DNA from: Zestosphaera sp.
Lineage (GTDB): Archaea > Thermoproteota > Thermoprotei_A > Sulfolobales > NBVN01
Length of the DNA: 64,000 bases
NCBI GenBank assembly: GCA_038843015.1
Contig: JAWBSH010000004.1
Location: 62,001-126,000 of the forward strand
Reading direction: 5' to 3'
Shown: one piece after another, positions 14,542 to 58,478 of the stretch
Layout: each line of letters opens with the position of its first letter
Position numbering within the stretch: position 1 is the stretch's first letter
Position numbers and translations under genes: made by a program
Notes under the pieces: model-generated
Databases searched by the model: none
What the model saw: the letters and a program-made list of their open reading frames with translations, nothing else
What the model was told of the DNA's origin: nothing

Positions 14542-14601
14542 TTAAACAGTAAGCAATACTTACTTAGTATTCTTAACAAGAGTAATTGAACGGTTAGCTT
14601 G

Positions 14602-14695
14602 TGGAGCCGGGGGCGGGATTCGAACCCGCGAGATAACGGGTATCGACTACTGAACCACTGCAGCCCGCCGCCTTAGACCGCTCGGCCACCCCGGC
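14602..14695 (-). tRNA. tRNA-Cys (GCA) with a 16-base intron
   Basis: On the minus strand the acceptor arms GCCGGGG and CCCCGGC pair fully, the discriminator is U73 (a cysteine identity base) and CCA is encoded (14602-14604). The D arm reads GCCGAGCGGTCTAAGGC and the T arm GCGGG-TTCGAAT-CCCGC. The anticodon stem GCGGG/CCCGT is interrupted after G37: the loop is CT-GCA-G, then about 16 bases (14642-14657), then A38. The intron can fold as a four-pair GGTT/AGTC helix with a CAGT loop between short bulges, close to the bulge-helix-bulge splicing motif. The exact splice bonds could shift by a base. Anticodon GCA and U73 rule out Leu or Ser despite the long-looking D arm. Confidence 0.88.
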
Positions 14696-14783
14696 CAATT
14701 AAGTAGTGATTACCAAAAATTTAAATTTTGATGATAGTTTGTGTGAAGCAGTATTTAAGACTAGGTAACGTATTCTTAACTGA

Positions 14784-16764: not shown

Positions 16765-16836
16765 CTGAAAGCCTTGTCTTTTGGAGCGGGGATGTCATAC
16801 TGACCTCCTCCCAGCCCTAAAGTGCGAGGCTTTCAG
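16765..16836. repeat. Tail-to-tail pair of TnpB-type end elements (RE3a/RE3b)
   Basis: A plus-strand copy (16765-16797, CTGAAAGCCTTGTC ... GGGGATGTCA) meets a minus-strand copy (16801-16836, minus strand CTGAAAGCCTCGCA ... GGAGGAGGTCA) with three bases between. Their outer CTGAAAGCC/GGCTTTCAG ends are perfectly complementary, so the whole 72 bases is an imperfect palindrome. It lies between divergent genes for the NusA-like protein and the tRNA thiolase. In an intact element the sequence after the tail would be the guide, so each copy would have the other as its guide. Confidence 0.6.
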
Positions 16837-16954
16837 AAGCGGTAAGGATGCTACTCTATGTTCTAGGCTTAGTGTCCCTGTCTTGCGTAGTTTGAGCGAG
16901 TTGTTGGAGAAGAGCTTAATAACTCGCAACACCACCTGAAGTTGGTACTCTCTA

Positions 16955-56649: not shown

Positions 56650-57141
56650 TTACTTGTTTGTAGATTCACACACGCATTCACATTGAGGAGTGCCTACTAA
56701 GTGATACGAGATTAGCTTTACTGTATTACCAGAAATGTCGACTAAGTATGTGTAGACTGCAGTCCCGTTTGTTAATACAGCTATGGATTGAGTAGCTCTT
56801 AAGATTACCTCACCATTAGCATCTACATACGCTCTTATTAATGGGTTGACTACCTTCAGGCTGAAGCCTTGACTTAGTAATTGTGAGGTCTCTGAATTAG
56901 ATTCTAGTACACTCATTACTGTTGAATTATATTCTGAGCTTACCTCAATTGCCGGAATTCGTAGAACTCCGCGCTTGTGAGGAGTCCAAGGCATTCCAGG
57001 AGTCACTGACTGAATATTAGTTGTTGTATTATTGTTTGAGTCTTGAGCGTAAGCAGATATTACGTAGCCTGCTCCCACAGCAATTATCACCGCAATCACT
57101 GTCGCCATCACAGTAGCTTTCTTCAAGCCCATATACATCAC
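56650..57141 (-). CDS. Hypothetical secreted protein
   Basis: This 163-residue protein has a signal-like helix (ATVMATVIAVIIAVGAGYVI) followed by an asparagine/threonine-rich linker (QDSNNNTTTNIQ) and a beta-type domain ending in a C-E-C-V-C-E cysteine cluster (PQCECVCESTNK). The N-glycosylation sequons in the linker suggest surface exposure. The family is not recognised. It heads the leftward four-gene cassette; the promoter lies in the 57142-57190 A+T-rich stretch. Confidence 0.6.
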   Translation of the reverse strand: MMYMGLKKATVMATVIAVIIAVGAGYVISAYAQDSNNNTTTNIQSVTPGMPWTPHKRGVLRIPAIEVSSEYNSTVMSVLESNSETSQLLSQGFSLKVVNPLIRAYVDANGEVILRATQSIAVLTNGTAVYTYLVDISGNTVKLISYHLVGTPQCECVCESTNK

Positions 57142-57210
57142 CGTGAGTAGAGGGCCAAAATAAATTTAAAAGGATAACTCTCAAAAAGAGAGTCTCTCAG
57201 AGAGAATTTA

Positions 57211-57326
57211 CACGGGGTAGGGGTAAAGCGCCTGAGACCGGGCGCGGAGCTAAACCCAGCGAAAGCCGGGAATGTAGCTCCAAACCTCCCCAGAACCCTC
57301 GCACTTTAGGGCGGAGAGGAGGTCAG
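57211..57326 (+). ncRNA. Orphan omega-RNA-like scaffold (RE8, full length)
   Basis: This G+C-rich island folds cleanly. GGGG-U-AGG (57214-57221) pairs with CCTCCCC (57285-57291) and encloses two hairpins. One is GCGCC (57228-57232)/GGCGC (57241-57245). The other is GGAGCTA (57246-57252)/TAGCTCC (57275-57281), with an inner CCC-GC helix capped by a GAAA tetraloop (57261-57264). It is followed by the dispersed element's own hairpin (57298-57316) and the tail GGAGGTCAG ending at 57326. This layout, scaffold plus 3' hairpin plus GGAGG tail, is what the guide RNAs of IS200/IS605 TnpB nucleases look like. No tnpB gene is present. The next 20 bases (57327-57346) would be its guide. Confidence 0.6.
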
Positions 57327-57519
57327 TCGCTAACTCTTCAACGACTCTCTTTAGTGTTTCTTCCTCTGCGCTAGCTACTTCTTAGGCTCATCTACTTGTC
57401 TGCAAGACCTTTAAGACCTTCTCTGATTTTCTTGAGTATGAAGAGTATAGGGTACTATATCGTCTAAAAAGTGTGTTCGCGTGTAATGTGTATGGTTTTT
57501 AAGCTATGCTTTTAACTCC
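57327..57519. other. Flank after the omega-RNA-like element
   Basis: On the minus strand a short open segment (AEEETLKRVVEELATD and on) runs through this flank into the element but has no start codon, so it looks like the remnant of a gene end interrupted by the insertion. No intact gene is seen. Confidence 0.3.
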
Positions 57520-57852
57520 CTAAAATAGAAGTAAAAGCACGACTAAATGTATTGTAAAGATTGTCAAAGCTAAGATTGTGATGTGAGGCCATTTTAAAAT
57601 TTTGTCTAAAGGCTTAAATTCTCGCTCTAATTCGCTCAGCACTCTTCGTTTAAGATCCTTTATAAGCTCCTCAGGAAGAGATCCTGCTGGCGCTTCCCTT
57701 AGGATAGGGTTTCCAGAATCATCTTTACTTAGTTGAAATGAATATGGACCGTAAAACTTAATCCTGCTTATTCTCTTAACACTAAATATTATAACTAGAA
57801 GCACCACTATCGTATTAATTAGGGATATAGCAAGAGCCTCGGTTAACTCCAC
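57520..57852 (-). CDS. Hypothetical small membrane protein
   Basis: This 110-residue protein has a membrane helix at each end (ISLINTIVVLLVIIFSV and ITILALTIFTIHLVVLLLLF) with a soluble, charged middle (KFYGPYSFQLSKDDSGNP, ELEREFKPLDKI). The two-helix hairpin-like layout with a cytoplasmic centre recurs in many archaeal accessory regions without known function. The family is not recognised. Confidence 0.55.
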   Translation of the reverse strand: MELTEALAISLINTIVVLLVIIFSVKRISRIKFYGPYSFQLSKDDSGNPILREAPAGSLPEELIKDLKRRVLSELEREFKPLDKILKWPHITILALTIFTIHLVVLLLLF

Positions 57853-58478
57853 GCATATCCCCTAAGCTTAAGTTTTGATCTAGGCTTAAAAACTTTGTGT
57901 TGAAACATGGCCCAACAAAGTCGAGGAATTAGAAATGAGGGAAGTAGTTACGATTATTAGCTTGTGATAGGAATACACTGTGACCTCAAACAGCGATCTA
58001 ACAATGTTTTTCTAACTATATCTCTGTTACGTTGCCTTCTCTGACGGGTTGTCATAGGTTTAATTAACTAGGGAAGACATTAAAGTAGTTGGCTGTGACG
58101 GATTTTACAGAACATTAAGCTCTTTCCCACTCTCGTATCTTGTAGTTATTAACGTGCTGAACCCGTGTTCGCTAAGGAGTTTAGTAAATCCCGAGTGATT
58201 GTCAACTAGTATTAAGACCTTAACCTCGACGACCTTCTCTTTAACCAAGGGAAATCACCCCCTAATCAAACACGTAGATTTAATTCTAGAATACTTTTAA
58301 TGCTGAACCTTTCAAGACATGTGTTGGCTAACCCTCCTGGCTTCCTCTTCGCTCTGAAGGACGAGACTCTGGCGCAATTCTTAGATAATGGACTACTGTA
58401 TTTTAAGCGTCATCGTGCGTAAAGAGGCGTCTAATAACGCTTTTAGTTTTATGTTCATAAACTATAGTTTGGTGTAGT
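57853..58478. other. Gene-poor 0.6-kb stretch of decayed sequence
   Basis: This is 626 bases with no intact gene. The only recognised content is the metallo-beta-lactamase N-terminal fragment on the minus strand at 58105-58248. The flanking parts have interrupted frames and shifting base composition. The stretch lies beside the orphan omega-RNA-like element and may be the scar of past insertions and deletions. Confidence 0.45.
58105..58248 (-). pseudogene. Truncated metallo-beta-lactamase fold N terminus
   Basis: A TTG at 58248 behind a GGTGAT site opens a 47-codon frame. Its VLILVDNHSGFTKLLSEHGFSTLI (in pieces) matches the N-terminal strand-loop of COG1237-type metallo-beta-lactamase proteins (V-x-x-L-V-D-N, L-x-S-E-H-G-F-S-x-L-I). 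It then stops at 58105-58107, before the FDTG and H-x-H-x-D-H metal motifs. No continuation was found in the next 200 bases in any frame. It is therefore a truncated gene, unless the short peptide is made and used. Confidence 0.6.

Follow-up and report, generated by a model that had tools for sequence, protein, structure and literature searches.

A probable 5'-truncated, tnpB-less right end of an IS605-type transposon, and its solo relatives, in a Zestosphaera genome

In the transposon IS608, cleavage at the left end takes place after TTAC, AAAG lies at the foot of the left hairpin, and the tetranucleotide at the right end is TCAA.

Transposons of the IS200/IS605 group are excised by TnpA as single-stranded DNA, between a left target site and a right-end tetranucleotide. 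A second protein, TnpB, is guided by a right-end RNA together with flanking DNA. It cuts the emptied site, and the repair that follows restores the element (PMC8612924, PMC10278001). The guide RNAs, called omega RNAs or reRNAs and exemplified by those of ISDra2 and the haloarchaeal sotRNAs, overlap the 3' end of tnpB in the sense direction, end at the right end of the transposon, and use the flanking DNA as guide (PMC8612924, PMC12558985).

Transposase-free derivatives of IS605-type elements have been described in Haloquadratum as PATEs, in work that predates the knowledge of omega RNA (PMC3119063). They are core-deleted elements with near-terminal palindromes, some of them 52 bp long. Another archaeal RNA with a partial connection to transposons is HgcC. 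Thermococcus kodakarensis has three HgcC RNAs whose start lies within a transposase gene, and two that are not linked to transposase genes (PMC4247193). The function of HgcC was still called unresolved in 2017 (PMC5732400). A literature search, mostly of papers available without subscription, found none that treats both HgcC and TnpB.

The locus considered here lies in a window of 64,000 nucleotides, which is the whole stretch of DNA analysed and corresponds to C4:62001-126000 in the 1.55 Mb draft genome (20 contigs) of Zestosphaera sp. An earlier note on the window had described a G+C-rich island at 57211-57326 and its fold, and both are confirmed. The island has 62.9% G+C, against 41.9% for the window, a value matched among 116-nt windows only by the tRNA-Leu stretch at about 14580-14706. 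Its minimum free energy fold consists of a closing helix (GGGG.AGG/CCUCCCC), two inner hairpins, one with a GAAA tetraloop, and a 3' hairpin with a GGAGG tail. The stability of this fold corresponds to z = -2.9, and none of 200 shuffled sequences was as good. The note was also correct that the window holds neither tnpB nor tnpA: no match to PF07282 or PF01797 was found within C4:62001-126000.

Matches to the scaffold occur in the host genome as 23 copies or pieces. Most of them span window positions 57209 or 57213 to 57326 and then stop, and therefore base 57326, the G of TCAG, is a boundary. It is the right end of the transposon (...GGAGGAGGTCAG), and TCAG forms the final four bases of nearly all scaffold copies. 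Past this base the sequence is different in every host copy, so that the end of the scaffold coincides with the transposon right end and is followed by a variable guide position, as in an omega RNA. The conserved unit begins at 57212, directly 3' of TTTAC. Of the limits first proposed, the right one at 57326 therefore stands, and the left one moves from 57211 to 57212. The features of the locus are listed in window coordinates.

57207 to 57211, plus strand: TTTAC, insertion target and presumed TnpB transposon-adjacent motif, to the left of the window copy; solo copies and the tnpA-bearing copy likewise have TTAC or TTTAC before their left end.
57212 to 57326, plus strand: truncated right end and omega-RNA scaffold, 115 bp, scoring 118.8 bits with model R1.
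57214 to 57309, plus strand: in-frame remnant of the TnpB C-terminus, GVGVKRLRPGAELNPAKAGNVAPNLPRTLAL and stop.
57214 to 57223, plus strand: GGGGTAGGGG, right arm of the family's 5' hairpin (A), whose left arm (CCCCGAGCCCC elsewhere) is missing; 4 of 8 pairs form in the window copy, against a mean of 7.8 in other copies.
57228 to 57245, plus strand: hairpin B, with a CG/GC exchange at columns 57:72 (23 versus 20 sequences) and further double changes.
57246 to 57281, plus strand: hairpin C, inner stem and GAAA loop, with double changes at 8 pairs of two stems.
57297 to 57316, plus strand: right-end hairpin D, part of the structure tested for covariation, with 2 mismatches in the window copy.
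57318 to 57326, plus strand: tail GGAGGTCAG, a conserved copy boundary; TCAG is the presumed right cleavage tetranucleotide of TnpA and the last scaffold bases before the guide.
57327 to 57346, plus strand: presumed guide position, flanking host DNA TCGCTAACTCTTCAACGACT, from which the sequence is unique to each copy; the guide role is assigned from TnpB biology (PMC8612924).

An inverted repeat (AGTCG-N12-CGACT, 57323-57347) lies across the right boundary of the element, possibly by chance.

The scaffold is linked to tnpB. Three host copies, on contigs C16, C9, and C12, lie directly 3' of a tnpB 3' fragment on the same strand. In relatives, the scaffold lies 3' of a complete or nearly complete tnpB at about 20 distinct loci, whose named hosts are mainly Desulfurococcales MAGs, together with a Geocrenenecus and an Archaeoglobales MAG. 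Judged by these relatives, the host is an archaeon of Desulfurococcales type. Two loci of one relative (G047) have the order tnpA-tnpB-scaffold. Where tnpB is of full length in these relatives, its last codons run into the scaffold and the tail ends about 20 nt past its stop codon, so that the family adjoins or overlaps the 3' end of tnpB as omega RNAs do. In the window copy itself, the final 31 codons of TnpB remain in frame. Within the order, the covariance model has a match in 84 of the 197 genomes searched and in 39 of 74 genera. Three relatives (G037, G040, and G059) have many short matches that cover only the right-end hairpin and tail (query 135-167); these point to many right ends with divergent scaffolds or to terminal-only copies.

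The host has one Y1 tnpA, at C4:154559-154915, with the left end TTTAC followed by AATTTCGAAAGCCTCGCCCTTTAGGGCGGGGATGG...GGTTTATAAG. This end is like that of IS608, with a TTAC cleavage site and AAAG plus hairpin, whereas the right tetranucleotide of the family is TCAG instead of TCAA. The start of a tnpB follows and runs to the contig end at 155121, and no complete cognate tnpB of this family occurs in the host assembly. Two further host TnpBs belong to different lineages. One of them adjoins a serine resolvase: at C7:71228-72962 (L030 108-1842) a TnpB-like protein of 435 aa comes after the resolvase, an order of the IS607 type.

Searches of Rfam gave no match at the island at gathering score. 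HgcC (RF00062) scores 30.3 bits there, with the best alignment over CGCACUUUAGGGCGGAGAGGAGGUCAG, against a curated cut-off of 50; the best relative reaches 43.8, and no tested copy attains the gathering score. HgcC and the window scaffold have the right-end hairpin and the GAGGAGGUCAG tail in common, and differ in that the family copies tested stay below the HgcC gathering score. Relatives linked to tnpB also match the Halobacterium omega RNA sot0042 (RF02656; E 1.4e-9), all below Rfam's cut-off of 88 bits. That tnpB-linked copies score with both families but beneath their cut-offs is a point against the interpretation preferred here.

Covariation was examined in a plain MAFFT alignment of 47 copies (A1). 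The structure tested comprises the 5' hairpin (A), hairpins B and C, the right-end hairpin D, and a CCUCC/GGAGG stem. It has 144 double-change cells, compared with 58.7 in shuffles, and double changes occur at 19 pairs. The family thus has a conserved, covarying secondary structure of the kind expected for an omega RNA, and the window copy is without half of its 5' hairpin. The covariation check that the earlier note had proposed accordingly found strong compensatory change, its check for a link to tnpB was favourable as well, and its omega-RNA reading was right in kind, given the link to tnpB in host and relatives, the covariation, and the likeness, below threshold, to HgcC and sot0042. Its closing helix fared differently as a family feature. 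The helix can form in the window, but the 47 relatives show no double change in it. In 17 of these sequences one of its pairs is broken, because the base concerned covaries within hairpin A instead. What is conserved is the 5' hairpin, whose upstream arm has been lost here.

The preferred interpretation, to which a probability of about 0.8 is given, is that the island is a tnpB-less, 5'-truncated right-end copy of an IS605-type (IS608-like) transposon, a shortened copy that is probably neither mobile nor competent as a guide RNA. As DNA, the hairpin and TCAG tail of an intact right end would be the site recognised and cut by the Y1 transposase TnpA. As RNA, such a right end would be the TnpB guide RNA (omega RNA), with host DNA 3' of TCAG as the guide. 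The window copy differs from the omega RNAs of IS200/IS605 in having no tnpB, no left end, and no complete 5' hairpin. Its 5' hairpin is incomplete because the copy begins directly after TTTAC (57207-57211), the left arm CCCCGAGCCCC being replaced by unrelated sequence that ends in TTTAC. Its covariance score of 118.8 bits compares with 142-166 for the eight best host copies.

Most likely, TTTAC served as the insertion site, and a later deletion removed everything from the left end of the copy to a CTCTAC inside it. TAC micro-homology may have mediated this loss, or TnpA may have taken that CTCTAC for a left site. Along with the left-end hairpin and the TATA box, the copy would have lost the left arm of the omega RNA's 5' hairpin, and 115 bp with the other hairpins and the guide position would have remained. 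The window copy is thus probably a defective solo right end. One point against this is that hairpins B, C, and D are well preserved and stand apart from single mismatches, so any decay would be recent or weak.

An empty site for the window locus (TTTAC joined to TCGCTAACTC) was not found in relatives, so the left boundary is drawn from the end of homology and the micro-homology. Two candidates were rejected. At the G002 locus, only two neighbouring genes are common to both, and at the G018 locus the alignment covers only the sequence from 57371 rightwards. There, window 57371-58000 is about 90% identical in nucleotides to L126 1064-1693 (G018 C9), from a genome placed in another genus of the family. 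The identity breaks off 45 nt to the right of the element, and what G018 carries on the left is a remnant resembling glutamate dehydrogenase. Among relatives, the 16-nt guide is matched exactly only once, in a coding gene of G018 whose surroundings show no other similarity, and this is taken as chance. For the tentative gene interrupted by the element (VASAEEETLKRVVEELA before the junction, SKFSLRDS... after it), no homologue was found.

The earlier note had suggested a guide RNA working in trans, or a domesticated RNA. In its fullest form, the first explanation has the window copy transcribed from a nearby host promoter and loaded into a TnpB from elsewhere, which would cleave the emptied site (TTTAC plus TCGCTAACTCTTCAAC) and so retain the copy. 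In its favour, the copy has kept hairpins B and C, the tail, and the guide position unimpaired, the host has a tnpA, a cognate tnpB begins there before a contig end cuts it off, and a candidate promoter such as TTTAAAA lies at about 57164-57170. However, that TATA-like box is well placed for an opposite-strand gene starting at 57141, the 5' hairpin arm and the element's own promoter are lost, and the assembly holds no complete cognate tnpB. The window copy gives no positive sign of a working trans guide or of a domesticated RNA, considering its missing arm, its reduced score, and its in-frame TnpB remnant, and a trans guide is judged unlikely.

Intact tnpB-less elements of about 210-337 bp occur seven times in the host genome and about 15 times in five relatives. 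They have both IS605 ends and no transposase genes; the window copy, without a left end, falls outside this group. Each consists of a left-end hairpin, usually a TATA-like box, the full omega RNA, and the right end. In the seven host copies (216-222 bp), TTAC or TTTAC is followed by AAAG (or a variant) and a hairpin, and the whole scaffold extends to TCAG; in most of them a TATA-like box, GGTTTATAAG or GGTTTTAAGC, lies between the left hairpin and the scaffold. The relatives' elements are found in G005 (332-337 bp), G011 (210 bp), G113 and G137 (262-265 bp), and G057. In those of G005 (L196-L204), some 110 additional bases separate the TATA-like box from the scaffold and include a conserved inverted repeat, GTGTGGGAGG...CCTCCCACAY.

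The groups differ in length and in fusion point, which argues for several independent core deletions as the source of the solo elements. Within groups, the elements are 72-99% identical while their flanks are at background (43-58%), and therefore the elements moved as units. An intact solo element would need both TnpA and TnpB to act on it in trans.

Two host copies have been reduced to about 42 nt, with nothing left but the fused terminal hairpins. One is in the window:

16800 to 16841, minus strand: 42-nt terminal-only relative, fused left- and right-end hairpins without scaffold, after TTAC (16842-16845), then CGCTTCTGAAAGCCTCGCACTTTAGGGCTGGGAGGAGGTCAG, ending GGAGGTCAG.

Such copies mean that the ends can survive when the RNA is gone. 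That the longer solo copies have kept their scaffold entire suggests that the RNA is under selection. The TnpB reading frame has been lost in many solo copies, yet their helices A and B are still 96.2% and 98.5% paired, and double changes occur at 15 pairs among solo copies alone, in counts from a model-fitted alignment that leans towards the structure. By its covariation, the family fold is selected as RNA, including in solo copies without the frame.

This bears on a second alternative, in which the window copy is no more than relic DNA, a piece of the right end and the tnpB 3' end that survived by chance. Its apparent RNA fold would then go back to the overlap, in the ancestor, between coding sequence, right end, and omega RNA. 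The in-frame TnpB tail and the many truncated pieces across the host genome agree with this alternative, and it departs from the preferred interpretation solely in denying the omega-RNA fold any relevance. It is considered improbable, more so than a working guide, since the covariation extends to frame-less solo copies. Although G+C-rich islands in A+T-rich hyperthermophile genomes are often RNA genes of the host, an unrelated structured host RNA (RNase P, SRP, H/ACA, CRISPR, or riboswitch-like) is refuted by the 23 dispersed copies and the tnpB linkage, and within Rfam only HgcC comes near significance at the island.

Recurrent tnpB-less elements that keep their guide RNA are the wider finding, and are a variant of the haloarchaeal PATEs. 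The 42-nt elements are comparable to the 52-bp PATEs, whereas the complete covarying guide RNA and the usual TATA-like box kept by the solo elements are not described for PATEs. The literature search, again mostly of papers outside subscription, found no description of solo or non-autonomous omega-RNA elements. It is quite possible, though put forward tentatively, that they form a class of mobile guide-RNA elements in Desulfurococcales-type archaea. Such elements, with left end and TATA box, complete omega RNA, and right end, would have arisen by independent deletions in different species, depend on TnpA in trans for their movement, and provide TnpB, likewise in trans, with guides that secure their own retention; the window copy would be a broken member.

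The cognate TnpBs have no glutamate at the usual RuvC-II position (VGYPK). Instead, a glutamate lies six residues before the first zinc-finger cysteine (VNEAYTSSKC), and two RuvC aspartates are kept. This relocated-glutamate arrangement matches that described in PMC10711439. The family TnpBs (L101, L102-L109, and the three host fragments) are of this Ealt, or RuvC-II-rearranged, type, and their RuvC-I motif is DIG, not DPG. An active TnpB with rearranged RuvC-II is known (PMC10278001), and therefore the cognate nuclease may well be active. A reading as TldR-like, nuclease-dead regulators was set aside, because no extra gene is linked and the catalytic residues named above are present.

Taken alone, the window copy has modest importance. 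RNAs resembling HgcC are tied to TnpB by covariation and by the direct adjacency of tnpB, and the omega RNA of this family has a wide distribution across the order (84 of the 197 genomes searched), partly as elements that keep the guide RNA without the nuclease. If the solo elements are expressed, a single TnpB would receive many guides simultaneously. This would bear on the persistence of TnpB systems and on the origin of guides apart from their nuclease, as in CRISPR.
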